Assembly: GCF_000429325.1 (NCBI RefSeq)
Contig: NZ_KE386885.1
Coordinates: 151,958-215,957 of the forward strand
Reading direction: 5' to 3'
From: Fundidesulfovibrio putealis DSM 16056
GTDB lineage: Bacteria > Desulfobacterota > Desulfovibrionia > Desulfovibrionales > Desulfovibrionaceae
DNA: 64,000 bases
Part shown: in pieces, positions 1-20,972 of the stretch
Layout: each line of letters starts with the position of its first letter
Numbering within the stretch: position 1 is the stretch's first letter
Notes under the pieces: generated by a model
Told to the model about the DNA's origin: nothing
The model's database searches: none
What the model saw: the letters and a program-made list of their open reading frames with translations, nothing else
Translations under genes and position numbers: made by a program

Positions 1-2
1 AA

Positions 3-213
3 GTCTCCCCCGCGTGTGCGGGGATCGACCCATCATGGGCGGCCAGGCGACTGGTCAGATCGCGTCTCCCCCGCGTGTGCGGGGATCGACCCGCCCGCGC
101 TTTAGGAATGCAAGGGGCTCGGCGTCTCCCCCGCGTGTGCGGGGATCGACCCTTCTAGACCTGCCGCTCCAAATTCAGCGAGTGGTTTCCCCCGTGTACT
201 TGGGGATGGTTCC
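3..213 (+). CRISPR. CRISPR array, type I-E-like, trailer end
   Basis: Three identical 29-base repeats lie at 3-31, 64-92 and 124-152. They begin GTCTCCCCCGCG, end ATCGACCC, and hold a CCCCGC/GCGGGG stem around GTGT. Spacers are 32, 31 and 32 bases. A fourth repeat at 185-213 matches about 20 of 29 bases. The sequence resembles the E. coli type I-E repeat read on this strand. Degenerate repeats normally mark the leader-distal end, so the leader and cas genes should lie left of the window; no cas gene is present here. The array is cut by the window start. Confidence 0.95.
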
Positions 214-222
214 CCAATAAAG

Positions 223-236
223 TGCAATCGATTGCA
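223..236. promoter_or_regulatory. palindrome TGCAATCGATTGCA, copy 1
   Basis: A perfect 14-base palindrome with central CG sits in the spacer position between two decayed CRISPR repeats. The same core recurs at 6237-6252 and 20951-20972. The shape matches operators of LacI-family regulators, but no LacI-type gene is in the window and no transport gene follows, so the role is unknown. Confidence 0.45.
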
Positions 237-242
237 GCCTTC

Positions 243-391
243 TTCTCCTCGGAGCATCCGGGAATCAACCCATGCTTCCCCCATGCCGTGCGACCATCGA
301 GTTTCCCACGCATAGGGCGTGAACGGAAATATCATGCACAGGTTGAGCGGAACTCGCCCGAAGATCCCACTCCGCGTGGGACGATACACCA
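243..391 (+). repeat. decayed CRISPR repeats beyond the array
   Basis: Three further repeat-like 29-mers continue the array rhythm: 243-271 (about 20/29 matches by eye, ending ATCAACCC), 301-329 (about 16/29, starting GTTTCCCACG) and 363-391 (about 16/29, centre CCGCGTGGGACGAT). Steps are 58, 58 and 62 bases against 60-61 in the intact array. These look like old, eroding repeats at the trailer. The last two are near the limit of what eye alignment can support. Confidence 0.5.
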
Positions 392-430
392 GTGCGCATT
401 CCTACCCTATCCTCAAAAAGAGTCATGAGG

Positions 431-3400
431 TCATTGTTCGATTCGCATCAACTCCACCCGAAACAACCCCACAAGCCACCTCTTCAATACTTCCGCACTC
501 CCCTCCCCCGATTCGCCTGCTTTCTCCTCCCGCTCCCAAACGACGCTCGCTGCATGCTCCACCCTGACAGGCACATAACCTCCGCCCATCTCCCTCTTCA
601 GCCGCTCCACGCCCTTCCTCGACAGGCAGGCCACGGCGTGACTATTCCATATGACCCGCCAGGAATCTTCTCCGCGCTGGACCAGCTCAAGGCCTTCCGA
701 GTCACCCGGCTCAAGGGCGGAAAGGACTTTCTGGGCCTGGGCGTGTGTTTGGGCAAAGGCAGGGAAAGATATGACCACGTCTGCGAGTCCCAGCTCCAGG
801 TGTTTGGCCGCGTAGGCCCGGGCCTCTTCCAGAGAGAGCGAGGGGTGAAGGGGTTCGCACCGGACGTCGCCGCCCAGTTCGTATGCAAACGGGTGTGCTG
901 CGTCCTGCCGCAGGAGCACCGCTAGGCGCTCTTTGGCCCTGGTCGCGGCCACGTAGAACAGCCTCCGTTCCTCTTCGACCTTGGCGGGGACATGACTTCT
1001 GCCATGACCCAGAGTAGGCTGTCCGGCCACGATGACCGTGTGGAATTCCAAACCTTTGGCCGAATGAATGGTCATGATCCCGACCCGCCCCGGTTCCGGT
1101 CGGGCTTCGCGGCCCAGTTCGCGGGCCGCGTCATACACGAAGCCGATGAAGTCCTGGATGGGCCGTGAATTGCCCATCGTTTCCGCCAGGTACATGTCCA
1201 GAAGCATGTCCAGCCTCCCCAACCAGGGATTGCCGAGCCGGAACCCGCTGTCGGCAACGATGTCATGGACAATTTCCCTGAGTTTCGCGCCCTTGACCGA
1301 CTTGTGCCCGCATTCCTCCAGACTGGCCTTGAGCAGCAGGAATTCCCGCGTGGAGGTGAGCGGCTCGCGTGTGGCTTTGGTGGGTCTGGCGGACAGCCCG
1401 GCAGCCGGGGCCATGCGGGCCAAGGCGTCCAGTTCCCGGTGCGTGCGGCACAGGATGCAGACGTCCGATGGGTCCAGCCCCGGCGCGGCAATGGCCTTGC
1501 GAGCCAATTCAAGAGCGGCCTTGAGGAGCGAGGGCTCGTCAGGCGTCTCGAACATGCGGACCTGGCCGCCGGGATGACTGCCGTCAACCGGGGCCATCTC
1601 CCTTCCGGTCTTCATCCGATCGCGGTTGTAGGCGATGAGCCGGTTGGCGGCATGTACGAGATTGGGGGCCGAACGGTAATTGGTCGTGAGCCAATCCATT
1701 TCCGCAGTATATTCCCGCTCGAATCTGCGGATGTAGGTCAGGTTGGCCCCACCGTAGGAGTATATGTTCTGGTCGTCGTCGCCCACGGCCATGAGCTGGG
1801 GTTTGCGTTCGCCCTTCTCGGTCCGTCCGGCCAACATCGAGAGGAAGCGGTATTCCAGTTCGTTCACGTCCTGGTATTCATCCACCAGGATGTGCCGCAG
1901 GCCGGACAGGAGACGGTCCCGCCAGTCCAGAACGCCGTGATTGTCGCCCGCCGCCGCCTCCAGGACCTGCACGGCATCTTCCAGCACAGAGTCGAAAAAG
2001 CTGTCCTCCACCGCCGCGCGCCTGCCTTCAAGGGACTTCCCGGCGAGGGACATGGCCAGCCCGTGATAGGTGTGCACGCGCACCCTGGCCGCTTCCGCGC
2101 CGATCAGGTCGCGCAGGCGGGTGCGGATCAACCCGGCTGCGCTACGGTTGAAGGCCAGGGCCAGGATGGAACGGGGAGGGACGCGCCGCACCCGAATGAG
2201 ATAGGCGATGCGGTGGACGATGACCCGGGTCTTGCCCGACCCCGGCCCGGCCACGATGAGCCGGTTTTTGTCAAGGGAGCCCTCCACGGCTGCCTGCTGC
2301 ACGGCATTGCCCAGGCCGGTGACGATCCGGCGGTAGCTCTCGACCGAGGTGGGGAGCTTAAGCAGCCATTTCTCGTTCCTGAAATACTTGGACACGAATT
2401 GGGCTGCTGGGTCCATAAAATAGTCCCGCACGAGCAGCAACGCCCTCTTAATCGCCTCCGCGCCCAGCTCCGCGAACCTACTCATGATATGGACCTGGAC
2501 CACCTTTTCGCTGAAGAACTCCTCCAGTGGCCGGAACTCCTCCTTGAGGAACCGCTCGCCGTGGGGCTTCACCTGGATGGTCATGGCCGGGCGGAACACC
2601 GCCATCCCGTTCTGCAAGGTGATGGCCTCCAGGTCGTTCAGGGCCAGCAGCCCCTGCTTGACGCGATCATTGCACCCTCCGAAGGAATGGGCACGCAAAT
2701 CGTTCGTCAGCGCCGTCTCCATGTCCCTGCTCATGAAGGAGACCAGCAGGTCCTTGCCGTGCTGCCCCGAAGGCACGCGGCCGAGCAGGTCGGCCAGAAG
2801 AATCCGGCAGACCGTGCGGCGCTCCTCCACATGGCGGCGGATGTCCTCCCACGGTTTGAGGAAGGCCAGGGCGAAGCTGTCCTCTCCGCGCTTTTTTATG
2901 CGCAGCAGGCCCTCGCGCGAGAGCATCCGCAGAATCTGGCGCACATGTTGCGGACGGCAACCCTGTTCCCCCCGGTCGAGCATCTCCTGATTCGCCCTGC
3001 GTTGATTGATGAAACGGCTGGCCTCCGGCCCAGCGTCCGGGCAGGTCTCCTCCATCCAGTCCAGGAGGGTCCGCTCCCGACTTTGCCAGGCCGCAAGGCG
3101 AGAGTCCGAGGAATCGGCGACGCCCTTGTGTACGTAGGCAGTCATGTTGAGGTCGTGGCTGATGAGTCCGGCCTTGTTCATGTCCCCCATGAGCCTCAGC
3201 AGTTCCTCGGCGGACAAGCCCACCTCGGCGGACAACCAGTCCGTATTGACCATTTCGCTGCGCCCACAAAGGGACAGGGCCTCCAGCACGTCCTGCCACT
3301 GCTTCCTCACCCGCCCAGGGAGATCGAGCTCGTCCATCCGCCGGGCCGCCTGTTCCAGGGGCAGGAGCATTCGGCCGTTCAGCACCTGAGTCCTGTTGTC

Positions 3401-5542
3401 GTCGCGTTGCAGGCGGCCGCATCTCTCCAACCAGGACAATGCGATTTTGACCTTGGTGTCGTAATCCTGCTGGGTGATGTCCAGGGCTTCGAGTTCCTCC
3501 CCTCGGACCTCCCCTGAACGCAGTAGCTCCCCGCTGGTAATCACCACGGTGTGGTCCGGCTCATTCGCGCAGAGCCTCTTGAGACCGGCGTGGATGGCCC
3601 GCATGTCGGACAGCTCCAGCCTCCCCTGGGCCGTGAGCCTGAACTGGGTTTCCATGTCCTCCGGGTCATAGAGCAGGACGCAACGGGCCGGTTCGCGGTC
3701 CCGCCCGGCCCGTCCGGCCTCCTGAAGATAATTCTCCAGCGATCCTGGCGGGTCGGAGTGGATGACCAGGCGGATGTCCGGCTTGTCCACGCCCATGCCG
3801 AATGCGTTTGTCGCCACGATGACCCGGATGTGCCCCTGGAGAAAACTTTCCTGGACCCTGCGTTTCTCCTCGGGAGTCCGGCCCGCGTGGAAATAATCCG
3901 CGTCCAGGCCATGCCCCCTCAGGCGGGCGGCCATCTCTTCGCAGCGGCGGCGGGCCGACATGAAGACCACCGCCCCGCCGGGCTCCCGGAGGCCACCCTC
4001 CAGCAACCCAATCAGGATGCCCGACTTGTCCGCAGGGCTCACCCGGATAACTTCGAAGGAGAGGTTCGTCCGCTCATGTCCGCCCAAAAAGAGATTGAGC
4101 TCCAGGCCCAGGGTCTCCAGGAAATGCGCGCGTATGTCCTCGACCACGTCGGGCTTGGCGGTGGCCGTGAAACAGGCGATCTGGGGCAGGGGCTCGCGCA
4201 GCCTCCTGGCCCGCTCGCTCAGGGCGCGGGCCACGTAGAGGTAGTCTGGCCGGAAGTCGTGGCCCCACTTGGACAGGCAGTGGGCCTCGTCATAAACCAC
4301 CAGCCCCAGTTCGCGCTGGTCCAGAGTCTGCTTCACGGTCCTGTTGCGCAGCTGCTCGGGAGCGATGAACACTAGGTCGGCAATCCCCATGCGAATGGCG
4401 TCCAAGGCATCGGAACGCTCCGGCACGGTGAGCAGTCCGTTTATGGTTGCGGCGTTGATCACGCCCCGGGCCAACAGTCCGTCCACCTGATCTTTCATTA
4501 GGGATTGAAGGGGGGATATGACCACGGTCAGCCGGGAACGCGTCCGGGCGCGCATGAGACCCGGAAGCTGGTAGCAGAGCGATTTCCCCGCGCCCGTGGG
4601 CATGACCGCCAGGCAATTGGCCCCCGAGAACATGGCACGCACGATCTGTTCCTGGATAGGTGGAGTCTCGTCGGCCACCGGGAGAAAACGGTCATATCCG
4701 AAAAACCGTTTCAGGCCGCCTAGTACGTCATGATGCTCGCGGCAGAAGGAGCAGGCAGGGTCGGCGCAGGGCCGGTCGCGCAGGACGTCCAACAGGCCGG
4801 GAATGTTCGGGAAAGTGTGGCGCACCCAAGCCGGAGCGACGGAATTGTCTCCCGCCACCCGGACCCAGGCCAGGGCATAGGCTAGGCAGAGAGGATCGAG
4901 CTGACCGGTGAGCGCTTTGTCGCAGGCGTCGGCCACCGCCGTGGGGCAGGCGCAGCCCGCAATTACAGTTCTGCTCAACTCCGCGATGTGGCGCGCATCC
5001 GGGACCTCGCCATCCAGCAGGCCTCCGAAGAACGCCGCATAACCATCCTGTGGCCGGGCCATGGAAAGAAGCCTGCTGTACAGACCTACGACCGTCTCCT
5101 CCATATCCTGAAACGCGGCCCACTCCTCGCGCAGCAGAATCAGGGCCTGCTGCGCGTCCCGCACCGGGTCCCCGGCTGAACGGGCGATGATTTTATAGGG
5201 CTTGGCCAGCCGGTGGTAAGGGTTGCGGGGGAAGGCCATCGGCGAGAGCCAAAGCGTGTCAACGACGGGGATGCGCAGCAGCTCCAGAGTCGGCCAGAGG
5301 TCCCGCAGGTGGGAGAGGTCGTGCAGGGCGACGTGATGGCCGACCAAGTGCCGCGCCCCCCGGCAGAAGCGATCCAGCCGCCGCACTGCCTCTTCTTCCG
5401 AGAAGCGCCCTTGGATGGCCAGCACCTCGTCCCGGCCCGGGGATACGGCCCCGACCTTCAGGATGCGCCGGGTGCCCGGATGGATTTCCAGGTCGATGGC
5501 TACGGCACCGTGCAGAAAGTTGTCGCAACGCGTTGAGTGCAT
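431..5542 (-). CDS. DEDDh exonuclease-RecQ-UvrD fusion helicase
   Basis: A giant three-part DNA-processing enzyme of about 1703 residues. Residues 12-130 look like a DEDDh exonuclease (D17-x-E19, HDLSHL near 74, GDPVRDAQQA near 125). A Cys cluster (C259, C264, C267, then HH) could bind zinc. RecQ-type helicase follows, with Walker A MPTGAGKSL near 314, DEAH at 418, and NAFGMGVDKPDIR and QEAGRAGRD motifs. The C-terminal third is a UvrD/Rep helicase with AGPGSGKT near 1100, VDEYQD near 1220 and TIHSAKGLEF near 1490. The ATG at 5542 starts just before the exonuclease; the frame opens 49 codons earlier, but no good ribosome site decides it. It stands alone beside the CRISPR trailer. Each domain is clear; a genome-defence or repair role is inferred. 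Confidence 0.9.
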   Translation of the reverse strand: MHSTRCDNFLHGAVAIDLEIHPGTRRILKVGAVSPGRDEVLAIQGRFSEEEAVRRLDRFCRGARHLVGHHVALHDLSHLRDLWPTLELLRIPVVDTLWLSPMAFPRNPYHRLAKPYKIIARSAGDPVRDAQQALILLREEWAAFQDMEETVVGLYSRLLSMARPQDGYAAFFGGLLDGEVPDARHIAELSRTVIAGCACPTAVADACDKALTGQLDPLCLAYALAWVRVAGDNSVAPAWVRHTFPNIPGLLDVLRDRPCADPACSFCREHHDVLGGLKRFFGYDRFLPVADETPPIQEQIVRAMFSGANCLAVMPTGAGKSLCYQLPGLMRARTRSRLTVVISPLQSLMKDQVDGLLARGVINAATINGLLTVPERSDALDAIRMGIADLVFIAPEQLRNRTVKQTLDQRELGLVVYDEAHCLSKWGHDFRPDYLYVARALSERARRLREPLPQIACFTATAKPDVVEDIRAHFLETLGLELNLFLGGHERTNLSFEVIRVSPADKSGILIGLLEGGLREPGGAVVFMSARRRCEEMAARLRGHGLDADYFHAGRTPEEKRRVQESFLQGHIRVIVATNAFGMGVDKPDIRLVIHSDPPGSLENYLQEAGRAGRDREPARCVLLYDPEDMETQFRLTAQGRLELSDMRAIHAGLKRLCANEPDHTVVITSGELLRSGEVRGEELEALDITQQDYDTKVKIALSWLERCGRLQRDDNRTQVLNGRMLLPLEQAARRMDELDLPGRVRKQWQDVLEALSLCGRSEMVNTDWLSAEVGLSAEELLRLMGDMNKAGLISHDLNMTAYVHKGVADSSDSRLAAWQSRERTLLDWMEETCPDAGPEASRFINQRRANQEMLDRGEQGCRPQHVRQILRMLSREGLLRIKKRGEDSFALAFLKPWEDIRRHVEERRTVCRILLADLLGRVPSGQHGKDLLVSFMSRDMETALTNDLRAHSFGGCNDRVKQGLLALNDLEAITLQNGMAVFRPAMTIQVKPHGERFLKEEFRPLEEFFSEKVVQVHIMSRFAELGAEAIKRALLLVRDYFMDPAAQFVSKYFRNEKWLLKLPTSVESYRRIVTGLGNAVQQAAVEGSLDKNRLIVAGPGSGKTRVIVHRIAYLIRVRRVPPRSILALAFNRSAAGLIRTRLRDLIGAEAARVRVHTYHGLAMSLAGKSLEGRRAAVEDSFFDSVLEDAVQVLEAAAGDNHGVLDWRDRLLSGLRHILVDEYQDVNELEYRFLSMLAGRTEKGERKPQLMAVGDDDQNIYSYGGANLTYIRRFEREYTAEMDWLTTNYRSAPNLVHAANRLIAYNRDRMKTGREMAPVDGSHPGGQVRMFETPDEPSLLKAALELARKAIAAPGLDPSDVCILCRTHRELDALARMAPAAGLSARPTKATREPLTSTREFLLLKASLEECGHKSVKGAKLREIVHDIVADSGFRLGNPWLGRLDMLLDMYLAETMGNSRPIQDFIGFVYDAARELGREARPEPGRVGIMTIHSAKGLEFHTVIVAGQPTLGHGRSHVPAKVEEERRLFYVAATRAKERLAVLLRQDAAHPFAYELGGDVRCEPLHPSLSLEEARAYAAKHLELGLADVVISFPAFAQTHAQAQKVLSALEPGDSEGLELVQRGEDSWRVIWNSHAVACLSRKGVERLKREMGGGYVPVRVEHAASVVWEREEKAGESGEGSAEVLKRWLVGLFRVELMRIEQ

Positions 5543-5709
5543 GGTAGGAATGCATATAAAGCCCTGGAGACAAACGCAATGATCGGGAAAATTGAAACGG
5601 TCAGACATAAGCAGCAAAGACAACCTGAGAAGTGTTGTCTTTGCTGTGGAACCGGCAGAACCCACAATCATCGAATTTCCGGTGAACAACCTGTTTTCAG
5701 GCCTTCAAC

Positions 5710-6368
5710 CTAGGAGTGGTTCATCCACAGCTTCCGTCTTTCGAAAACCAGCCTGAGCATTTCAACGTCCAATAGCTCCCCTGGCCTTGTAATTTTGACA
5801 TCACCCAATTGAGCCAAGCAACCTTGACAGAATGGACCAGCCGACGAGCCTTCTTGGCGAACTCCCGCCCGGCGTCGTCATTGTCGAAGCCGAGCATGAC
5901 CACCCGGGCGTGGATGGAGTCCAGTTGCTCGTGTGACGGCTGGCCCAGGCATGCCAGGACGTTGATCGTCGGGAACATCGTGCGCAGCCTCATGGCGTCG
6001 ATGGCGCCCTCCACCAGGATCAGCGGGCGGTCAGGCACGTACAAGTGATTCCCGAACCACAGGTTCGTGGCATGGTAATCGACCTGGGAGCCGTCAGCTT
6101 GACCGACAGCCGGAACGAGTTGTTTGAAATCCCGGCGATGGTAAGGGCCCACATGCCCAGGACATCTCCTGGTATGCCTATCGATGATCGGAAAAAATAC
6201 CCGGCATTGACCTGATAAAAAACTTTCAAATATGAACTGCAATCGATTGCAGGTCAACCTTACAGCCCTTGATGAGCCCACGGAGGGTGTCATCTACGGT
6301 GGTGTATTCGCAGTGTGCGTCCAAAGCCCGGTATCTGGCCAGAACATCATCGCTTTCTCAAACAGCAT
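5710..6368 (-). pseudogene. frameshifted Toprim/DnaG-like primase remnant
   Basis: A Toprim core is clear in one frame (LILVEGAIDAMRL, then VVMLGFDNDDAGREFAKKA), preceded by VFFPIIDRHTRRCPGHVG, as in phage and plasmid primases. The coding signal changes frame at least twice. The N-terminal part (RYRALDAHCEYTTVDDTLRG) reads in another frame before about 6240. The natural C-terminus (GDVKITRPGELLDVEMLRL) reads in a third frame ending with TAG at 5710. A GGGAGGGG ribosome site precedes ATG 6368. It follows the Rep-like gene on the same strand, so both probably came from one plasmid-like replicon. Sequencing error could mimic the shifts, but two in 650 bases favours decay. Confidence 0.7.
6237..6252. 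promoter_or_regulatory. palindrome CTGCAATCGATTGCAG, copy 2
   Basis: A perfect 16-base palindrome with the same core as copies 1 and 3. Here it lies inside the decayed primase gene, where the minus strand would read Leu-Gln-Ser-Ile-Ala. It may therefore be a chance coding palindrome, although an exact match to the intergenic copies is unexpected. Confidence 0.4.
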
Positions 6369-6384
6369 CACGTCATCCCCTCCC

Positions 6385-7437
6385 TTACAGGTCTTCGTTC
6401 ATCTCGTTCATCCTTGGTAAGCAGGTGTTGTAAACACTGCGCAGAACCGGAGTCATGTCCTTCCGGTGTGTGAAGAAAAACTCGAAATCGGGGTCCTTCG
6501 GGATCGACACCCTAAATGTCTTACAGTTCTTAGTGGTGACCTGAAGGCGATTCAATGCTGAGGGGATCCACCGCCACTTGGCCACGATGTTGGCCAGAGT
6601 CAGGTGGATGGCTTCGTCATCATATCCATCATTGCGAAGTTCGGTGACGTAGTAACCCATTAGACCGCGCATCTTGCCGGCCATATTCCGGACACACCCT
6701 TCATACTCTTTGTCGGCCACGGCCTTGTACCAAGTCTCCAGACCCACCTTTCCGTTGGCCTTGCCGTTCTGGGTGAACAGAGGCTCCTCAGCCTTCTTGG
6801 CGGACTTGGCTTTCGCGGTCTCCTGGGACTTAGCCTTGGCGCTGGTAAGCATGCTCATAAGGTCGTTCATAATCGTTCTGTAAGCCTCCTGGGCCTTTGT
6901 GATGAATGAACGTAACCCGTGGATCAATCTGTTGGCAAAGCTGGCCGTGTAGGCGCACATCCGGTCGAAAACGGGCCCGGCCGCCAGGCCATGGAGATCA
7001 GCCAGGTCGCGCCAGGCGTTCGTCTTGTGGTTGAGCTTGTCGATGATCGGGCGGACACCCTCATGAATCTTCTTGAGGTTCAGCCCGTAGTAGCACTCGC
7101 TCCCGTCATCCTGGCGGCACATCTTGAAGAGGTAGCCCTGGGCCACCAGCCAATCGAAAGCGTTCTGTGCCGTGCGGGATGAGAACCGGCAGCCGGCCGC
7201 TGCTTCTTTCAGAGTGAGCCGTTCAAATGGCTTGTTGAATGCCAGGGTCCGGGTGGAGATGAAGCGGAGCATTGCCGATGCATTCTGGGTGCTCATGCCT
7301 GTGCCTCGGATACCCAGCAGCATTTCGCCTACGGGTTCCGCGTCTGAGTAGAACATCCGATGGATGGCGCGGCAGATCCGCTTCTCCTCGGGTGTCTGGA
7401 AGGCCATTGCGTTCGTGATTTCGTAGCATCCGGTCAT
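6385..7437 (-). CDS. plasmid Rep-like winged-helix protein
   Basis: A 350-residue protein starting at ATG 7437 behind GGAGGGAAC. Residues about 55-115 look like a winged helix (ERLTLKEAAAGCRFSSRTAQNAFDWL, shown here only in part: LTLKEAAAGCRFSSR). A Lys/Ala-rich linker near 205-225 separates it from a C-terminal domain. I do not recognise a named family. The layout resembles replication initiators: DNA-binding N-terminus, iteron-like palindromes 300-400 bases upstream at 7747-7839, and a primase remnant just downstream on the same strand. No attachment site or partition gene is visible. The replication role is inferred from context; a phage regulator is the main alternative. Confidence 0.55.
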   Translation of the reverse strand: MTGCYEITNAMAFQTPEEKRICRAIHRMFYSDAEPVGEMLLGIRGTGMSTQNASAMLRFISTRTLAFNKPFERLTLKEAAAGCRFSSRTAQNAFDWLVAQGYLFKMCRQDDGSECYYGLNLKKIHEGVRPIIDKLNHKTNAWRDLADLHGLAAGPVFDRMCAYTASFANRLIHGLRSFITKAQEAYRTIMNDLMSMLTSAKAKSQETAKAKSAKKAEEPLFTQNGKANGKVGLETWYKAVADKEYEGCVRNMAGKMRGLMGYYVTELRNDGYDDEAIHLTLANIVAKWRWIPSALNRLQVTTKNCKTFRVSIPKDPDFEFFFTHRKDMTPVLRSVYNTCLPRMNEMNEDL

Positions 7438-7746
7438 TCTGTTCCCTCCGCAAATAGAGTCGATCTCCTCATCCTATAGGAAGGGCTTCATCGGTCAAAT
7501 CCATCCGGTGCTGATCGACACCGAATACAAAGAAAGTTTGCGGAAATCGAAAATAATCTGGTGGGAGGGGGCGGGCGCAATGGGGGAGGGTCTTCGGCTG
7601 TTGGTTGAGTGCCTCGATCCGAATGCCTTTCTCTTCTCCTTCCCCCCAGCGGGAGGTCCGGCGACTCGGCGCAGCCGATCGCTAGACTTTCTTTCTCTTG
7701 CTCTTCTCTTAATTCTCTAGAGCTTCTAAATTCTCCTGTACTTAAA

Positions 7747-7839
7747 AGAGCAATTTTTGCTGAGTGGGGGTCAGCAAAGTTTGCTTAGGGTATTGGCATA
7801 GGGTCAGCAAAGTTTGCTGAGGGGGGTAGCAGAATTTGA
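7747..7839. repeat. iteron-like or operator palindromes
   Basis: The 17-base palindrome TCAGCAAAGTTTGCTGA (8-base arms, one central base) is perfect at 7804-7820 and has one change at 7771-7787. Both are flanked by G-runs, at 33-base spacing. A weaker copy AGCAATTTTTGCTGAG lies at 7749-7764 and a partial one at 7826-7839. They sit in AT-rich DNA upstream of the Rep-like gene. Either plasmid iterons or autoregulatory operators would fit. Confidence 0.6.
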
Positions 7840-8041
7840 CATCCATCCTCGTTCTTCAATTTCCATTTGTAAACCGACTCTGATCTTTCCTATCGTCACG
7901 TTCAATCATGGCTGTAAGTACTCTCCTCTCGACTCCAAATTCTCCTTAGCCTATGAAGGGACGTAGGTGGAGTACCCTTTCCTACGCTCCAAGCCGGAAA
8001 GCGTCCGAGGCGATCAGCGAATGCAACGCGGGGTCTCCGAC

Positions 8042-8959
8042 ATGAACAAGCTCCTGGTAACTCTCGCCCTGGTGCTCTCCTTCGCATCCCCCGTCCTTGC
8101 CGGTTCGTTCGAATCCGGAGCCATCGCCGTCGTGAACGACGACGGCAACAACCTCCGCGCTCATGGCGGGGCAGGATACCAAAGCGCAAAAGTACTCGGG
8201 GTGCTGAATAGGGGCGCGTATGTCCGCGTTCTTCAGCAGCAGGGAAATTGGAGCGAGGTTTTGTGGGGGGATGAACAGCGGGGGTGGGTGAATTCGAAGT
8301 GCCTCGTCCCGGTGTCCCAATATCTGGCCGATCCGGTAAACAAAGAGGACGTGTACTGCCCAAAGGACTATCGGCGGCGCTTCGTTGCCGACCTGGACAA
8401 AACCCATCCCAAGGCGGTGATCGTCCTGGAAGACGTGCCGACCCTTTTCGGAGGGGGGGGTCGGATCGTGGTATCGGACCTTCAGGGCGTCGTTCTCTGG
8501 CGAGGGCCGGTCACGGACGTGTTTCAGGACCCTGCCACATGGAATCCACTCTTTTACTTCTGCTCGCACGGAGGAGTGTACTGGCCCTCCGTGGTAGGAG
8601 ACGTGGATGGAGATGGTTTCGCGGAAATATTGGCCGGAGATGCCCAGTCAGACGTCTCGGTCAGTTCCTTCACCCTTGCGCGCTGGGACGGCAAGGTTTT
8701 TTCCGTTGTCAGGCGCGGAGAGTCGCTGATCGAATCGCCTCTTGATTCCGGCCACTACTCCTGGGTGGCCTGGAACGGGGGCGACCGTTTCGCCCGCTGG
8801 ATCATGTCGGTAAAATCCCTTGAGCCTGACGGTGCGGTGCGGGCGGAAATCTTCGAATACGGGCCGGGGAAGCCCCTGCGGTTCGGCACAGCCATTCTGC
8901 GGATGGACGCCTCAGGCGCGGCGTTCGTCAAGTGGATCACCCCGCTGCGCGCATCATGA
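8042..8959 (+). CDS. secreted SH3-domain protein with FG-GAP-like loop
   Basis: A 305-residue exported protein. The start at 8042 gives a clean signal peptide (MNKLLVTLALVLSFASPVLA); the frame is open further upstream but codes no plausible leader. Residues about 28-85 are a bacterial SH3 domain (NLRAHGGAGYQSAKVLGVL, ending GWVNSKCL), a fold that often binds cell wall. A Ca-loop-like GDVDGDGFAEILAG near residue 200 resembles FG-GAP/VCBS repeats. Its stop overlaps the next start (ATGA), making it the first gene of a three-gene coupled operon with CHASE2 and FecR proteins. Substrate is unknown. It could be a periplasmic sensor or adaptor. Confidence 0.75.
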   Translation: MNKLLVTLALVLSFASPVLAGSFESGAIAVVNDDGNNLRAHGGAGYQSAKVLGVLNRGAYVRVLQQQGNWSEVLWGDEQRGWVNSKCLVPVSQYLADPVNKEDVYCPKDYRRRFVADLDKTHPKAVIVLEDVPTLFGGGGRIVVSDLQGVVLWRGPVTDVFQDPATWNPLFYFCSHGGVYWPSVVGDVDGDGFAEILAGDAQSDVSVSSFTLARWDGKVFSVVRRGESLIESPLDSGHYSWVAWNGGDRFARWIMSVKSLEPDGAVRAEIFEYGPGKPLRFGTAILRMDASGAAFVKWITPLRAS

Positions 8960-10320
8960 GCATCCTGACGCACTTGGACAAGCGCCGGCCCCTGGCCTTG
9001 GCCGCAGTCGTCCTCACATCCCTCGCGGCGGTCTTGGCCGGTACGGGCCTTGGGCTCCTCAGCAACATGGACCGATGGTGTTGGGATTTCAACCATGTGC
9101 TCGCAGGGAGACGCCACGACCCCTCCTCGACCCTCATCGTTTCCTTGGACGCACAGGCTCTGGCGGCCTACCCGAACACCCCCCTGGCATTCTGGGGGCC
9201 GCAATACGCCAAGGCGATCGAACGGCTGAAAATGGCCGGAGCCGCCTCCATCGCCCTGGACGTCCTGCTGGGTATAACGCCAGAACAATGGCTGCGCACC
9301 CTGGGGGCCGACAACATCCCCGAAGCCCTGCTGGATTATGACCAGGGTTTCGACCAGGCTCTCGCCCAGGGGCGAGTGGTCCTCGCCGCGCGGCCGGTTC
9401 GCGACAAAGGGGCGATCCCCGTTCCTTTCCCAGCCAGGGAATACCTGGACGCCCTGCCCGGCAAACTGGAGAACCTCGGGCTCACCAACCTGCACCGGGA
9501 CTCGGACAACGTGGTGCGGCTGATGGTCGCGGCTTACGCCGGGGTGCAGAGCGCCCCTAACACAGCTGATTTTCCAGTCCCGGAAGGCTACGCAGCACCG
9601 GATCCCTGGTGGACGCTGGGTGTGCTCGCCGTGAGGGAAGCTGGACTCCTGGGCAAAGCCGCATTTTCCGACGCCCTTGCGGGGCGGAGCCCTGAGCCTA
9701 TCGCCTTCTGCGGCCCTCCCGGCACCATCCCCCGCCTGTCCCTGGCAGCGCTCACGCGGGAAGAGGGTCTGAGCAACGACGAACAGGCGCTGATCGCGGG
9801 CCGCGTCGTCTTCATCGGGGCGGAGTTCGAAGGTGCGGGAGACCGGCTGCCGACGCCGTACTCCCGCCGGTTCCTCTGGCTCGGTCACAGGGATATGAGC
9901 GGCGTGGAGATTCATGCCAACATCGCCGAGACCGTCATCAATCCAGGCCGACTCGGCACTGTTCCCTTGTGGCTGGCCGGGCTCCTCTGGCTGCCGTTCC
10001 TGGCCGGGGCTGCCCTGGTATGCGACCGCTCAAGCCCCTGGAAGGGGAAAGGGGCCAAGGCCGCCCTGATCGGCGCGGGGTGGGCTCTGGGGCTCGTGTT
10101 TTTCCTGGCCGGGAAGCTCCTCCCGGTGGCGGGGCTCATCACGGGCCTGGGGATGGTCTTCACCAGCGTGAGTGGCCTGCGCATGACCCGCGCCGAGCGT
10201 GAGCGGGCCCGCATCGCCCGCCTGCTCGACAGGCAGGCCTCAGGAAAAGCTGCTGGGTGCAATGAGGGCTGCGGCTCCGAAGCGAGACCCGTCAGGAACG
10301 GCGGGAGGAGGAAGCCATGA
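8956..10320 (+). CDS. CHASE2-domain membrane protein lacking an output domain
   Basis: A 454-residue protein from ATG 8956, overlapping the previous stop as ATGA. One membrane segment (about 11-32) is followed by an extracytoplasmic CHASE2 sensor (about 45-320). This has the family's DLAILxVD-like start (STLIVSLDAQAL), IALDVLL, and FIGAEFEGAGDRLPTPYS near the end. Two or three membrane helices follow (about 335-405). In most CHASE2 proteins a cyclase, kinase or phosphatase follows. Here only about 50 basic residues remain (RERARIARLLDRQASGKAAG), which resembles the linker that normally leads into a cyclase. It is a sensor without enzyme output, possibly signalling through its operon partners. 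Confidence 0.85.
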   Translation: MSILTHLDKRRPLALAAVVLTSLAAVLAGTGLGLLSNMDRWCWDFNHVLAGRRHDPSSTLIVSLDAQALAAYPNTPLAFWGPQYAKAIERLKMAGAASIALDVLLGITPEQWLRTLGADNIPEALLDYDQGFDQALAQGRVVLAARPVRDKGAIPVPFPAREYLDALPGKLENLGLTNLHRDSDNVVRLMVAAYAGVQSAPNTADFPVPEGYAAPDPWWTLGVLAVREAGLLGKAAFSDALAGRSPEPIAFCGPPGTIPRLSLAALTREEGLSNDEQALIAGRVVFIGAEFEGAGDRLPTPYSRRFLWLGHRDMSGVEIHANIAETVINPGRLGTVPLWLAGLLWLPFLAGAALVCDRSSPWKGKGAKAALIGAGWALGLVFFLAGKLLPVAGLITGLGMVFTSVSGLRMTRAERERARIARLLDRQASGKAAGCNEGCGSEARPVRNGGRRKP

Positions 10321-11149: not shown

Positions 11150-14122
11150 TCAGGGCTCTCCGAGATACACGAAAGCCCCCCAGTAATAGGGGTTGTCCGC
11201 TCCGTAGCGTTCCCGCACGATGGCGCGTTCGTCCTGAATGGCCTTTCGCAGCGCCTCAGGACGGTTCATGCCTCCGGAAATCAGGTTGCGGTAGAAAGCG
11301 GCCATGAGCTCGCCGGTTTCCTTGTCAGGGACGCTCCACAGGCTCATGACGATCCCCTGTGCGCCGGCCTGCAGGAGGGCTCTGCGAAGCCCGAACACGC
11401 CTTCGCCCGCCATGACGTCCCCAAGGCCCGTTTCGCAGGCCGAAAGCACGACCAGCTCCGTCCCGCGCAGGTTGAGGTTGAGGAGCTTTTCGGCAGTGAC
11501 GACCCCCTCGTCGCCCCCCTGGCGCAGGGAGGCGTTGGCCCCGGCCAGCACGATGCCCGAGCGCAACAGCGGGTTTTCCTGGCCCTGGCCGGAGGACCGC
11601 GCAGGCAGGATGGCCGCATTGGAGGCAGCCTGCGCATCCGCCTTGAGAAAGAACCCATGCGTCGCCAGGTGGAGTATCCGTGGGCTCTTCAAGGCGAACA
11701 GCGCCTCTTCCAGGGCCTGATTTCCCAGATACACCGAGCCCTGCGGCAGGGCCGCAGAGATGGCCTTGACCTCGGAAGCGGTGCCCGGCAGACGACGGAA
11801 GCTTTGCCCGCGAAGCTGCCTGGAGACCTCACCGCCCCGCGTCGCCGCAAGGCCCATGGCCCGTGCCTGCGAATCAATCTCCTTCTTGCCCAGGTTGAAA
11901 TCGGGGTCTCCGAAAAGCGCCGGTTTACCCGAGCCGCCCCCTGATTGGGAGAAACCGCCGGCTTCGAAAGCCAGCGCGTCGCGCCCGGCGGACAGGTAGG
12001 AGAAGGTATACTCCTCCACGAGCGGCTTTCCGGAAGCAGGGCCAAGCACCTCGAATGGGAACAGGTTCAGATTTCCGTCCGGAGAGAGATAGACATGACG
12101 GGCCTGGCCAAGGCTCTTGCGGAGCGGGGCGAACACAAGGTCGAAGAGCTTGGCGGACCAGGCGGCGGACTGCGCGGTGCCGGGCTTGGCGTCGTTTGGC
12201 GTGTCGCGCATGGACTTCACGAATCCGGCCACGGCCTCGTCAATGCGGGCAGCCGGGCCGAGGTCCACGAGCGCGGGCACGCCTCCCTGCCCTCCCGGCA
12301 GGACGAAGGCCATGTAGCGCTGGGGCTGATTCTCATGCCTGGCAAAGTCGAATGGCGAGTAGAGGCAAAACTCCACCAGGGCCGAGCCTGCCGGGAGAGC
12401 CGCTGCCAAACCCGCCGCTGTGGCCGCTCCGGTTCGCTTCTTCCTGGCGAATGACTGGCTGGCGCTGGCAAACTTGGCTTCAAGCGCGCTCTTTTTCGCC
12501 TCCAGCGCGGCGATTTGCCTGGCTGTTTCCGGCCCTGCCGAATCTGAGGCCATCGCCAGCTTGGCCAGGGACGCCCGCAGGCGTGAGAGCTCCTCGAAAT
12601 CCTTTCGAACCTCCGCAGGCGCGTCGATCACCATGGCTTCCTGGAACTGCTTCTGGGCCTCGAGCACCGCCCCCTTGCGGCGCAGCCACAGATTCATGGC
12701 CGCAATCCGGGCGGACTGGTCAGAGGCGAGGCGCTGGCTGACCAGGGAGAGCATGGTGTCCACGCGGGATCGGTTCCCGGTGAGGTAGGTCAGCTTGTTC
12801 TGATCCGAAGCGAAGCCCATCACATGGTCGATGAGCGCGTCGTCGGCCTCCTGGCCCTTCATAAACGCCTCCAGGGCGCGCTTGTCGCCGCCCTGGTCGG
12901 CGTCCACCAGCCCCTGGATGTAACAGACGTCCGAATAGCTTTCCGAGGACTTCCCCACGGTCTTTTCGGCAATGGCCCTGGCGCGCTCCAGAGGTTTCAC
13001 GGCGAGATCTGGGCGCCTGGCCATGTAGTACACGCCCGCCTGGTTGGAGAGAATCTTGACCAGCACGGGGTGGTCTGGTCCCATGGCCTCTTCAAGGATG
13101 GCCACGGCCTGGCGCATCTGCTCCTCGGCCTTGGGGAGATCCCCCGAGAAGGCGAGATCAATGGCTGAGTTGTTCAGGCGGTGGGCCATGTCGGGGTGCT
13201 TGTCCCCGAGTTTCTTCCTGGTCGATTCGACAACAGCAGACCCGAGGGCCAGGGCTTCCTTGGTCCGGCCCGTGGTCTGGTAGATCATGGAGAGGTTGTT
13301 GCGAACGCTGATGATGAGCGGGTGGTCGGCCGGAAGGTTCTTCTCCAGCACCGCCAGGGCCCGGTTGCTGTACTCCTCGGCCTGGGGGAAGTCCCGCAAC
13401 TGGCTGTAGAGCATCCCGAGGTTGGCGTATACCACGCCTGCGTTGATGCTCTCCTTGCCCCAGCGCTTCTCCTGGCTGGCCTTCGCGCTTTCCAGGAGGT
13501 CGCGCGCGCGGGCCAGATCGCCCATGTTCACGCAGGTCGTGGCCAGATTGCTCTGTGCGGAGGCCGTGTTCTCGCCGTTCGGCCCCTCCTTTTTCATGAA
13601 GATCGCCAAGGCACGCTCACCGTAAGGCTTGGATTCTTCATAGCGGCCCTGGTCGTTGTACAATACCGAGAGGTTGGCCATAATCTTGGCCGACATCTCC
13701 CCTTCCGGGCCTTCCAGGGACTCCGCCAGCGGCACGATCGCCTTGTACTCGTCCACGGCCTTGGCAACCTGCCCGCCCTGATACGTGAGCTCGGCCAGGG
13801 CATACCTGATCAGGAGGACGTTCTTGCTCTTCTCCCCGTCCTTCTTGAGGTATATCGCCAGGGCTTTTTCGAACATCTGCCGGGCCTTGGCGTAGTCCCC
13901 CAGACGCTTGTACGTCTCGCCAAGCACGATGGCGTCCAGGGCCACAAGGGAGTGCTCCGGCCCGAATGACTTCTCGTGGTCGGCCAGCGCCTTTTCAGCA
14001 ATGGGCAAGGCTTCCTGGGGTTTCTGATCCCGCAGCAGGTTGTAGCTCTTGTAGGTCGAGCAGGACAGCAGGCCCAACCCGGTGATGGCCAGAAACAGCG
14101 CCAATCGGATACGTCGTGTCAT
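11150..14122 (-). CDS. TPR-CHAT caspase-like lipoprotein
   Basis: A 990-residue protein starting at ATG 14122 behind GAGGAGA. The leader ends in a lipobox (GLGLLSC, Cys 21). Residues about 40-480 hold tetratricopeptide repeats of the CHAT-associated type (A..Y..RAL..E... units). The C-terminal third is a CHAT peptidase domain: the His site is LHLATHGFF and the Cys site is LSACETGLGD, followed by GEGVFGLRRALLQAGA and SLWSVPD. Catalytic His and Cys are both present, so it should be an active Cys protease anchored in the envelope. It ends the leftward operon with CsgG-like, YdbH and YdbL proteins, and converges on the CHASE2/FecR operon. The substrate is unknown; self or partner cleavage on signal is inferred. 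Confidence 0.9.
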   Translation of the reverse strand: MTRRIRLALFLAITGLGLLSCSTYKSYNLLRDQKPQEALPIAEKALADHEKSFGPEHSLVALDAIVLGETYKRLGDYAKARQMFEKALAIYLKKDGEKSKNVLLIRYALAELTYQGGQVAKAVDEYKAIVPLAESLEGPEGEMSAKIMANLSVLYNDQGRYEESKPYGERALAIFMKKEGPNGENTASAQSNLATTCVNMGDLARARDLLESAKASQEKRWGKESINAGVVYANLGMLYSQLRDFPQAEEYSNRALAVLEKNLPADHPLIISVRNNLSMIYQTTGRTKEALALGSAVVESTRKKLGDKHPDMAHRLNNSAIDLAFSGDLPKAEEQMRQAVAILEEAMGPDHPVLVKILSNQAGVYYMARRPDLAVKPLERARAIAEKTVGKSSESYSDVCYIQGLVDADQGGDKRALEAFMKGQEADDALIDHVMGFASDQNKLTYLTGNRSRVDTMLSLVSQRLASDQSARIAAMNLWLRRKGAVLEAQKQFQEAMVIDAPAEVRKDFEELSRLRASLAKLAMASDSAGPETARQIAALEAKKSALEAKFASASQSFARKKRTGAATAAGLAAALPAGSALVEFCLYSPFDFARHENQPQRYMAFVLPGGQGGVPALVDLGPAARIDEAVAGFVKSMRDTPNDAKPGTAQSAAWSAKLFDLVFAPLRKSLGQARHVYLSPDGNLNLFPFEVLGPASGKPLVEEYTFSYLSAGRDALAFEAGGFSQSGGGSGKPALFGDPDFNLGKKEIDSQARAMGLAATRGGEVSRQLRGQSFRRLPGTASEVKAISAALPQGSVYLGNQALEEALFALKSPRILHLATHGFFLKADAQAASNAAILPARSSGQGQENPLLRSGIVLAGANASLRQGGDEGVVTAEKLLNLNLRGTELVVLSACETGLGDVMAGEGVFGLRRALLQAGAQGIVMSLWSVPDKETGELMAAFYRNLISGGMNRPEALRKAIQDERAIVRERYGADNPYYWGAFVYLGEP

Positions 14123-14737: not shown

Positions 14738-17700
14738 TCATTCCCCTATTCCAGAAGGAGCCGGGACCTTGATCTTTGCGGGACGCGGTGCGTCGTGCCC
14801 ATGCCCCATGCCGAATTCCACGCCCGGCTTCGTTTCCCTATTCATTATTTTCTTGATTCGGACAAGCAGGTCCGCAAAAGGCATTGCATTCTCAGGGTTT
14901 CCGTTGACCACGTCCACTCCAGCCAATCCTGAACGCTTCAGGATGTATTCGACCCCATTCTCGTGATGCAGGCCGCGCACGGTGCACATGGCCCCTTTAA
15001 GCCCGATGAGCAGACCCAGCTTCTTGTAGCCGAAGTCGCCGAACAGCATGAGCGCGGCTCGCGCCGCCAATCCGGGATCGACACGCCCCCCCGCGCTCAC
15101 CTCGGTCAGCGAGTCCACCGCGCCGAGGCTGATGCGCTGCTCCACGCCAGGTTCGGGGAGCGACTCCACGCGCAGGGTGAAGGCCAGAGGCAGAAAGCCC
15201 GCCATGTGGAGCTCCGACAGAGTCACGTTGAGCCTGCCGGTAATCCTGCCCACCCCGGCCATGGCGCTCACGGACCGCATGTCCGCGCCGAGAAGCCCTG
15301 CATGGACCCGGAACTGGCGATCCGCCGCAAACGGGCGGGCCACCTTGAGCCCCATGACCACCAGATCGCCCCCGAAGGCCTTTGCGGTCAGCTCTCCGTC
15401 CACGTTCAGCATGTCCTTGGTGAGGGTGATGGTTTCCCAGTTGCCGGAGGCCGCGCTCGACAGCTTCCCCTTGGACAGCTCTGCAAGCGGCAGCTCCGTC
15501 AGCCGGGCCGAGAGCCGGGCCTCGAAAGTTGGCTCGAAGGGGTTGCGCACTTCGGGCCGCGAGAGAGTCAGCCTGCCGCCAAGCAGCATCAGCTCAAGCG
15601 CCGGGCTGGTCTCGTCCCAGAGCCGCAGTGAGTCCCTGGTGAGGATCACGGGAATGCGCAGTCCCGTACTCTCCACGCCATGCGCACGAAGACTCGTCAG
15701 CTCCACCTCGCCGCGCCCGGTCAGTTTCGGGGCGGCGAGGCCCTCGGCGAACCCCAGCCGCATGCGCGCCTTGCCCTGCACCTGAACGCCGTCCTGCCCG
15801 GAAAGGGCCGGAGCCAGGGCAGAAGCCAGCCCGCTTAGGTCAGGAAGGGCGATGGTAGCGTCGCCTTGTCCGGTCCAGCCCTTTTTCGAGGGTGTGAACC
15901 GTCCCTTGACGCCAACGCTGGCCAGCCGCGCCAGGGATGCCTCCGCTGAGACATCAGCGCCCTTGTCCGGGGCGATCAGCTGGATCTTCGCGTTCACCTT
16001 TGCGGGATGCTTCGAGAACTCAAGCAGGGCGTCCGGCAGATGCAGCGCCCCGCCCTGGAGGGCGATCGAAACGGCGAGCGTCTGCGGCGCACCGGGATCG
16101 AAATCCAGTCCCACGCTGCCGGAAAGTCCGGTGCCAAAGCTAGCACGCTCTGGCAGGTCAATGCGGACATCCTTCAGGCGGGCTTCCACATGGGCAAGAC
16201 GCCCCGCAGCAAGCTCGCCGGGCTTGAGCCAGGCCTCCACATTCCCCGCCACGCCAACGGCCCCCGTCGCCGCTCCCGGCTTTGCGGACCTTGTCCCGGA
16301 CTTTCCGGCCCTGTCTGCGGCGGCGCGCGCGGAAACGCGGTTCTTCTCACCAGACTTGCCCGCCGTCAGGGCAGGCAACCCAAGGACCTCGGCCAGCCGT
16401 TCGAGCTGCACGGTGGCGTGCGCTCGTTCCACAACCAGAGAACCCGGTGCGCCTGAATCCATCCCCACAGAACAGCTCAGGGTCCCCAGATCGCAGGCAT
16501 CTGCGATCATGGACACCACGCCGGAGACCCTGCCCTGGGACACCGTCATTCCCGCTCCGCCGTGCGCCTTGATCTCCGGGAACGCCATCCCTCCGGCGAA
16601 CTGGCCCAGGGAAGCCCGGAAGTTGACCGCCTCCACGGTGATCGTCGGCAGCCGCCCGCCAAGACCGGCCTCGAACTGGAAAGCTGGAAGGGACAGCTCG
16701 GGACGCTTCACCGCTCCGCGCATGGCCACCTGGCCGGACAAGGCCCCGTCGTCGAACGCCGCCACGATGGAGAGGACGCCCTCAACCCCGAGCGAGGCGC
16801 TCGCAATCCCCATGGAGGGAGATGACACTGCGGCGCTGGCCCGCACCGGGCCGCCAGAAGGGAGTTCCAGGTTCAGGGAGATAGCCGTCTGCCCGTCCAG
16901 TTTTAGGTCGCGCAGGTTTTCCGGCATAAGAGGCTGCACCAGAGGAGCAAGACGGCGGAGGTCTGCAAGGTCCGCCTGCGTGCTCACGACGAATCCCTGG
17001 TCGCGGGAGCCTTCAATGCGGCCCTGCGCCGCCAGGAGTCCCGGCACGGCGATGCGGTCCACTTCAATGTCCAAAACCCCTTTCTGAAAACGACCGTGGG
17101 CGAGCATGTCCGCCTGCGCCCCCTCCAGGAACCCTTTGAGAGATTCTGGGAGCGCCGCCCCTTCGTCGGTGAGGCGTACCCGCTCAAGCCGCAGGGCGAA
17201 GGAGTCCAGATTCAGGTCCTCCGCCTTTGCGACGAGTTCGCCATTGCTTTCCAGGGAGGCCCGGAAATAGCGGGTGACGAGTTCGGTTTGATCCAGGCGA
17301 AAATTCACGTTCGCCTTGGACGAAGCAGGGTCGAGATTGCCCCGGATGACCACGCGCGCATCAGCAGCGAGGGATTTGCCGGGAGCCTTGTCAGCGACGT
17401 CGGGCAGGGTAAGCCGTTCAGCGGGGAGACTCTCCGCGTGGGCATCGATTCCGTCCATAGACGCGTTCAGGCGCACTGCCGCCCGCGCTTGCAGCACGAC
17501 TTCGCCGCCCGGCTCCATGGACAGAGCCGCCTGCGCCGCAGAGGCCTCGCCGCCGGGCCAGAACGCCTTGAACGCGCCCCCCCGCAGCGACACGCGCACG
17601 TTGTCCGGCAGAGGGGGGAGATGCACGGAGGGAGATCCCGGTGTCCGGCTTTCAGCCTTGGGCAGTGATTCGAACAGCGCGGAAACATCCGGCGACTCGA

Positions 17701-20950: not shown

Positions 20951-20972
20951 GACCTGCAATCGATTGCAGGTC
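20951..20972. promoter_or_regulatory. perfect 22-base palindrome, copy 3
   Basis: Arms GACCTGCAATC and GATTGCAGGTC pair over 22 bases, extending the core shared by copies 1 and 2. It is intergenic, between the AlpA-like gene (running left, start 20719) and the end of the AOR gene (21041), so it could lie in the AlpA-like promoter region. LacI-type operator shape; regulator not in window. Confidence 0.5.

Follow-up and report, generated by a model that had tools for sequence, protein, structure and literature searches.

The 64,000-nucleotide stretch of Fundidesulfovibrio putealis DSM 16056 analysed here (contig NZ_KE386885.1, positions 151,958 to 215,957; referred to as the window) carries on its minus strand a gene (431..5542; coding 434-5542, stop 431-433) whose deduced protein of 1,703 amino acids combines a DEDD exonuclease-like domain, a four-cysteine site, a RecQ-type helicase core and a UvrD-type helicase. 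The chain represents a widespread accessory family of patchy occurrence. We tentatively propose, at just short of an even chance, that the gene may be an accessory, horizontally moving single-gene nuclease-helicase limiting phages or plasmids by acting on branched or 3'-ended replication DNA. This defence reading is based on the domain order, the intact key residues, the sharing of little beyond the gene itself between sites, the patchy distribution, purifying selection and a moderate enrichment of defence genes in the vicinity.

The open reading frame 431..5689 on the minus strand has a TTG start and comprises 1,752 amino acids; translation from the ATG at 5542 yields 1,703 amino acids followed by the stop, and the full-length relatives begin at about the same place. 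A first-pass annotation had described an exonuclease, a RecQ and a UvrD helicase in one chain of about 1700 residues, and both the single frame of 1,703 residues and the order of the domains were confirmed; a search for the full architecture detected full-length relatives in many bacterial groups. Pfam matches were obtained for DEAD (residues 295-469), Helicase_C (512-615), UvrD-helicase (from 1079) and UvrD_C (1485-1543), and no Pfam model, nor any of the 25 best NCBIfam or PADLOC matches listed, spans the whole chain. Conservation was deduced from an alignment for which 77 of the 96 locus proteins qualified as full-length (78 full-length rows counted), while 19 proteins shorter than 1,480 amino acids were left out, among them that of locus L010 owing to a wrong-strand reading. 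AlphaFold models of residues 1-690 and 630-1703, calculated from alignments of 64 and 63 rows, reached mean predicted local distance difference test (pLDDT) values of 88.9 and 87.6, respectively.

The exonuclease-like domain (residues 13-145; 5108..5506, minus strand) was assigned by alignment, by the order of strands and helices and by profile matches to the PDB. Pfam gives no useful match for this part of the window protein, and among 35 relatives the best-supported family was DNA_pol_B_exo1 in four (E 5e-4), along with RNase_T in one (E 0.15). When residues 1-150 were compared with the PDB as a profile of 55 rows, the top match was the 3'-5' exonuclease of DinG (8zef, E 4.2e-4), followed by four chains named 'exodeoxyribonuclease III' (E 6e-4 to 8e-4), which we take to be TREX-like. 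Further matches comprised T7 DNA polymerase (0.031), a Cas2-linked DEDDh domain (0.13), the unrelated glutathione S-transferase (0.44) and, lower down, Pol II. An hhalign comparison of the domain with two annotated 3'-5' exonucleases was unsupportive (0.8%), whereas the larger 55-row profile did lend support. The modelled N-terminus consists of strands 13-20, 27-34 and 39-43, helix 49-59, strand 65-68, helix 72-82 and strand 93-95, followed by helices, an order that in our judgement agrees with the DnaQ fold. The Foldseek and VIA listings for the N-terminal model (residues 1-690) were taken up by RecQ chains, so that the exonuclease fold is a prediction from the profile and from the order of strands and helices.

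The acidic residues of motifs I to III are almost invariant: D17 and E19 were found in 75 of 75 rows with letters at these positions, D75 in 77 of 77 and D129 in 77 of 78. The catalytic histidine of DEDDh enzymes, expected five residues before the last aspartate, is absent; this position is occupied by asparagine in 71 of the 78 rows, by serine in five, by lysine in one and by glycine in one, namely the window protein (G124). The profile alignment places the asparagine opposite the histidine of DinG. Accordingly, the label DEDDh of the first-pass annotation should read DEDD. Our guess is that H110, which belongs to a PYHxLxK motif and is kept in 76 of 77 rows, replaces the lost histidine; model confidence is low just past this residue (pLDDT 59 in block 111-120).

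The segment between the exonuclease and the first helicase (residues 199-267; 4742..4948, minus strand) contains the cysteine-rich knuckle noted in the first-pass annotation, C259-x4-C264-x2-C267, to which C199 can be added. These four cysteines vary as a set, being present in 75 of the 78 rows and absent from one cyanobacterial and two Campylobacterota rows, and this all-or-none pattern suggests a probable zinc site.

The two motors belong to different helicase groups, as previously noted. The first is a RecQ-type superfamily 2 core (residues 268-642; 3617..4741, minus strand; Walker K320, DEAH 418-421), which was recognized by Pfam, the alignment, VIA-align and the RecQ family model TIGR00614 (291.7 bits, cut-off 219.8), whereas it remains below the cut-off of the bacterial RecQ equivalog TIGR01389 (335.6 versus 640.2 bits). 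Residues 268-642 were superimposed on RecQ (1oyy) with a Z value of 27.6 and a root-mean-square deviation (rmsd) of 2.2 over 346 residues. K320, D418, E419, H421, T459, T461, T578, Q607, R611 and R614 are invariant in 78 of 78 rows, while A318 of the Walker motif is mostly glycine in the relatives. The second motor is a superfamily 1A helicase of the UvrD/PcrA/Rep type (residues 1068-1572; 827..2341, minus strand; Walker K1104, DEYQ 1221-1224, R1535), assigned by Pfam (UvrD-helicase, E 3.9e-38), by the alignment and by VIA-align, in which it matched UvrD of D. radiodurans (4c2t_B) with Z 41.4 and rmsd 4.8 over 456 residues (aligned residues 1069-1567) and PcrA (1qhg) with Z 35.8 and rmsd 2.8 over 386 residues. 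In this part K1104, D1221, E1222, Q1258, R1290 and R1535 are invariant in all 78 rows; a few motif positions near the key helicase residues of the chain vary in one or two rows. The scores remained below the equivalog cut-offs for PRK11773 (195.3 versus 965 bits), pcrA (191.2 versus 911.2) and rep (153.6 versus 951.45).

The motors are separated by a linker (residues 643-1067; 2342..3616, minus strand) that appears to contain winged-helix-like segments, as indicated by sub-threshold Pfam matches at residues 756-804 and by the helix and strand order of the model. The 14 Pfam families matched at E values up to 1 included neither RQC nor HRDC, and winged-helix domains were matched only weakly. 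The C-terminal tail (residues 1573-1703; 434..826, minus strand) was not assigned to a family by Pfam, the model or VIA-align. In a viral structure library, the 50 matches listed were headed by RecQ-like and other helicases.

The distribution of the chain is that of an accessory gene. Of 59 relatives, three, all from a single genus within the same order, contain full-length copies and a fourth contains a copy truncated by its contig end; six genomes of the same genus as the window do not have the gene. With an N-terminal profile, matches were obtained in 11 of 395 genomes in the phylum, among them the own genome. A scan of one genome per species yielded at least 80 loci, of which at least 69 represent the full chain by matched stretch and at least 11 RecQ only; according to record titles and the tree analysis, these loci come from Pseudomonadota, Thermodesulfobacteriota, Bacteroidota, Bacillota, Verrucomicrobiota, Actinomycetota, Campylobacterota and other phyla. 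The phyla are mixed in a quick tree with flagged long branches, in which the Pseudomonadota rows require 12 changes compared with a shuffled mean of 14.0, and the Bacteroidota rows cluster (6 changes versus 20.9). The gene is extra to the RecQ of the host, since a separate short RecQ is present in 19 of 20 genomes carrying the chain and the own genome encodes a further RecQ on contig C12; a UvrD-like frame is located on contig C3.

Comparison of closely related copies suggests that the gene moves between sites. It is carried by five of eight genomes of one genus of the same order, and in nine of the ten pairs of copies the block shared at the gene consists of the gene itself with 7 to 280 bases upstream and less than 100 downstream; in the tenth pair (G114, G115) 461 bases upstream are shared, up to a contig end. 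The flanks are not entirely different: a repeated gene resembling an acetyltransferase is found there at other distances, as are a 2.4-kb block (G047, G055) and smaller pieces. In G047 and G115, a region starting about 10 and 7 kb downstream, respectively, is common at 90 to 94% identity, the gene itself at 86%. The five copies are under purifying selection, with a mean omega of 0.163 over the ten pairs (0.25 in the exonuclease part and 0.11 in the RecQ part).

Among the matches in the phylum, one copy is broken by a frameshift, one has an internal deletion and one is a pseudogene, while two consist of a stand-alone exonuclease part. A split version of the gene was considered for four short frames of 362 to 432 amino acids with an exonuclease domain, which were otherwise explained: two are stand-alone and remnant-like (in two genomes of one genus), one is frameshifted and one ends at a contig end; this reading covered the four frames, and two further partial matches are located in G181 and G355. 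The stand-alone proteins of 362 amino acids, with exonuclease domain and cysteines, are encoded at L237 10190-11275 and L238 9731-10816 in genomes that also contain a full-length copy elsewhere; they look like remnants, the alternative being a working short form.

No fixed genetic context of the chain became apparent. In 97 loci with 1,241 neighbouring frames within 10 kb, no cluster was common to more than 10 loci, and hence there is no conserved partner; the representative of the largest cluster is a histidine kinase. A housekeeping operon was therefore rejected, and the constant housekeeping neighbourhood that would have spoken against a defence role was not observed. In the same-order genus, four of the five copies lie within 10 kb of a restriction system or its remnant, namely a type I set (G038), McrBC (G055), HsdR together with a disrupted HsdM (G047) and what is left of an HsdR (G115), named by reading of the frames, a protein panel and PF02384; the fifth copy (G114) is located on an 8.8-kb contig without a restriction match. 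A protein of 1,963 amino acids adjoining the Tritonibacter copy (L053 3984-9872, plus strand) matched the PADLOC models PDC-S37 (E 0) and Hhe (1.2e-165).

The neighbourhoods were furthermore compared with random regions. With six restriction proteins of Escherichia coli K-12 as queries (E 1e-5), 6 of 49 family regions had a match, compared with none of the 40 random regions (Fisher P 0.024); these six regions are composed of 2 in 23 genomes with matched controls and 4 in 26 further loci, the latter without controls from their own genomes. An earlier and wider query set had given 10 matches in 178 family proteins, 5 in another 181 family proteins and 0 in 332 controls, but it included three self matches as well as RhuM, AlbA and Mod queries picked from these very loci and was redone with the E. 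coli queries only.

A search with PADLOC models at 1e-15 yielded 58 and 145 matched models among 72 and 91 proteins (163 in total) encoded within 5 kb of the gene in 23 genomes, whereas the 76 and 95 proteins (171) from random 10-kb regions of the same genomes matched 11 and 12; these counts overstate the contrast because the models overlap, and since the output was the best 25 models per run, matched proteins are not exactly countable. The family side covered 163 of 165 neighbouring proteins of at least 120 amino acids, and the control side 171 of 310 proteins, from 23 of the 40 random regions with 4 of their 175 frames left out. The matches on the family side include two to type I restriction, one to a methyltransferase of type I, one to a type IV restriction enzyme, and Cas1e, AbiEi and a PDC-S37/Hhe protein; those on the random side include Vsr, SspH, mad, a restriction enzyme of type II and the PDC-S01, S03 and S07 models; RtcR models, which also match ordinary sigma-54 activators, appeared on both sides. 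The frame picker takes the longest frame, in places the antisense one, on both sides, and for this reason the HsdR of G047 was missed in the PADLOC and restriction-query tests. In 55 genomes, PF02384 (HsdM) matched four times at a distance of up to 20 kb from the gene, compared with 1.0 expected (P 0.019), and two of the four matches fall in one genus. PF13310 (RhuM) occurred near the gene in three genomes, compared with 0.52 expected (P 0.016), although one of the three had partial matches alone; Cas1 occurred in none (0.25 expected). Taken together, these tests favour a link to defence, each being inconclusive alone, and the tally of neighbouring defence genes advised in the first-pass annotation revealed an enrichment, albeit a moderate one.

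Several results weigh against a defence role. At E 1e-8 the restriction queries give 5 of 49 versus 0 of 40 regions (P 0.046), and the 23 genomes with matched controls alone give 2 of 23 versus 0 of 40 (P 0.13); 43 of the 49 regions have no match to the six E. coli proteins, and the random regions also hold PADLOC matches. The P values for HsdM and RhuM flatter the case because these families were picked after they had been sighted in the neighbour clusters. The same direction is indicated by the lack of a conserved partner gene and by a PADLOC 2.0.0 search with the chain itself, in which each of the best 25 of 80 matches had its best stretch inside a single motor. Moreover, nuclease activity may be altered or lost, since the catalytic histidine of DEDDh enzymes is missing.

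The regions devoid of restriction matches would also suit an accessory enzyme of DNA repair or recombination that acts in end resection or in fork or D-loop processing, has a WRN-like layout with a second motor and spreads as a fitness gene that does not target foreign DNA. We consider this explanation possible, although somewhat doubtful: the helicase parts represent classical repair activities and the gene is under purifying selection, whereas the patchy distribution, the broken copies, the short shared blocks, the presence of a RecQ of the host's own and the enrichment of defence genes nearby argue against it.

The occurrence of the chain on plasmids bears on another explanation, a maintenance or replication helper of mobile elements (plasmids, integrative elements) that would serve their own copying or the suppression of rivals. 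Among plasmid records 187 match, and 23 of them, some cyanobacterial, hold at least 80% of the chain; near-full copies also occur on some IMG/VR contigs, the phage status of which is putative. The Aliarcobacter copy is located beside parAB and a replication gene, the Bacteroides copy some kilobases from parA and SSB genes, and a primase fragment adjoins the gene in the window. On the other hand, 159 of the 187 plasmid records were typed as non-mobilizable (RecQ-only matches included), none of 23 matching phage records holds 80% of the chain, and no neighbour cluster recurs in more than 10 of the 97 loci, so that this role appears improbable. Among the other plasmid copies, that of Thiothrix (pTfr153) is found near a type I-D cas locus, that of Allochromatium adjoins a type I restriction set and those of Cereibacter and Sulfitobacter are located beside toxin-antitoxin genes; the copies of Microvirga and Calothrix, among others, have none of cas, restriction or toxin-antitoxin genes beside them. 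Nine annotated plasmid copies are named 'RecQ family ATP-dependent DNA helicase' or 'ATP-dependent DNA helicase RecQ'.

In the window itself, the stop of the gene lies about 280 bases from three perfect CRISPR (clustered regularly interspaced short palindromic repeats) repeats (3..152), and the position beside a CRISPR array is therefore as described in the first-pass annotation. The repeats form the distal end of an array that is broken by 1,778 Ns just before the window, and reading of the frames in L038, the locus of the window gene, revealed type I-E cas genes upstream. The Cas1 protein of this locus (L038 16458-17345, plus strand) matched Cas1e in PADLOC (E 2.3e-139) and was missed by the Pfam model Cas_Cas1 at 1e-10, so that Cas1 counts obtained with this model may be too low. 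Thirty bases taken from each of three spacers had no exact match in viral contigs.

This arrangement raises the idea that the protein helps CRISPR adaptation by feeding Cas1-Cas2 of the neighbouring type I-E locus with DNA pieces that it has unwound and trimmed at the 3' end. In a study of E. coli (PMC9699676), RecBCD, or RecQ in its absence, aids primed adaptation, while DnaQ and ExoT are described there as not essential for adaptation. The gene lies on the other strand, past the distal end of the array, and in 55 genomes none of 38 Cas1 matches shares a contig with the family gene, a count made with a model that fails to detect the own Cas1e and on contigs that are often short. Linkage to CRISPR is likewise unsupported by a simple array finder applied to 96 loci, which counts for little, as it was unvalidated on a true array and also gave no result in L038, whose array consists largely of Ns. 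Linkage to cas genes was seen in the window and in Thiothrix pTfr153 and did not recur among the Cas1 matches of the 55 genomes. Accordingly, a function in adaptation seems very improbable, the argument from CRISPR adjacency loses its support apart from the type I-D case, and the adjacency looks incidental.

How a defence enzyme of this composition might work can be outlined from its parts. Helicases of the RecQ and UvrD families both translocate in the 3'-to-5' direction, and DEDD exonucleases degrade 3' ends; the same polarity of both motors would make a branched substrate more suitable for the chain than a linear end. At a fork or D-loop, one motor would follow the leading template into the parental duplex and open it, the other would strip the opposite (lagging) nascent strand, and the N-terminal DEDD domain would degrade the exposed 3' end of the leading strand, with linker and cysteine site holding both motors and the nuclease on a single branched substrate. 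Specificity for foreign DNA may stem from fork structure or end accessibility, as is reported for Nhi.

Parts of the chain have counterparts in known systems. WRN likewise has a DEDD 3'-5' exonuclease ahead of a RecQ core, and the PDB matches to the RecQ part include WRN chains; the chain differs in that Pfam detected neither RQC nor HRDC in it and in having the four-cysteine site before the core and a second, superfamily 1 motor after it. Since WRN is a DEDDy enzyme, its motif III also differs. DinG resembles the family in the fusion of a DEDD exonuclease, that of the best PDB profile match, to a helicase, but it has histidine where the family has asparagine and contains a single helicase, which is XPD-like according to the abstract of PMC12525004. 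RecBCD and AddAB likewise unite nuclease and helicase motors in one machine, and VIA-align superimposed the UvrD part on AddA (4cej_A, Z 30.3, rmsd 3.0, 385 residues) and RecB (3k70_B, Z 26.5, rmsd 3.7, 387 residues), whereas the family is a single chain with another nuclease fold and with both motors 3'-to-5' by family. The best PADLOC match, DpdF (E 8.4e-112), shares the RecQ-like core, but the match is limited to residues 271-659 and the NCBIfam DpdF model gave 173.5 bits against a cut-off of 550.

The combination of nuclease and helicase is also the logic of Nhi and of Gabija, whose GajB models in PADLOC match the UvrD part; GajA was not named in the nine annotated plasmid neighbourhoods, in which no search aimed at GajA was made. 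To our knowledge, neither a RecQ core nor a DEDD domain has been described for Nhi or Gabija. In a review (PMC11084316), Nhi is described as a multifunctional enzyme that degrades phage replication intermediates, and GajB is predicted to be a UvrD-like helicase. The mode of action of Nhi is the closest that we have met.

A search of the open-licence literature for this layout revealed no study of the chain; its parts are of known kinds, and their combination with an altered DEDD site is a variant that was not found described there. Whether it constitutes a new class of single-gene anti-phage or anti-plasmid systems, in which two 3'-to-5' motors and a third type of DEDD nuclease with neither histidine nor tyrosine, possibly using H110, dismantle the forks of invaders, we regard as conceivable, though rather unlikely. 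Many bacteria carry the chain under a bare 'RecQ' label. If the defence reading is true, they would possess a compact one-gene system with two motors and a nuclease that can be inactivated separately, and how a nuclease-helicase tells the forks of an invader from those of the host would become directly testable; if the repair reading is true, bacteria would have in this family an equivalent of WRN that brings its own second motor. With either reading, the odd active site of the exonuclease poses a clear biochemical question.

Upstream of the gene lies a primase (Toprim) fragment (5721..6293, minus strand), probably decayed, which was recognized by Pfam, PHROGs-type scans and same-genus comparison and is collinear with a homologous stretch in a same-genus genome; this fragment corresponds to the plasmid debris mentioned in the first-pass annotation. 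A frame of 350 amino acids beside it (6385-7437, minus strand) gives the impression of a plasmid replication protein and had no match to Pfam, NCBIfam or PHROGs families or to phage records. A search of window positions 1-9000 against Rfam gave no match. Farther away, the minus strand encodes a TPR-CHAT protein of 990 amino acids (11150-14122; Pfam CHAT, E 1.9e-68), adjoined by a frame of 1,109 amino acids without a Pfam match (14738-18067) and a lipoprotein-like frame (18237-19322). The perfect palindrome TGCAATCGATTGCA occurs three times in the window, at 223-236, 6238-6251 and 20955-20968, and two of these copies flank the helicase gene; in the form that is one base longer, TGCAATCGATTGCAG, the sequence is confined to these three sites within the 4.7-Mb genome. 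One 16-base copy of the palindrome is present in a same-genus genome, about 1 kb from the primase homologue. The palindromes might represent operators or partition-type sites that belonged to an element since lost.

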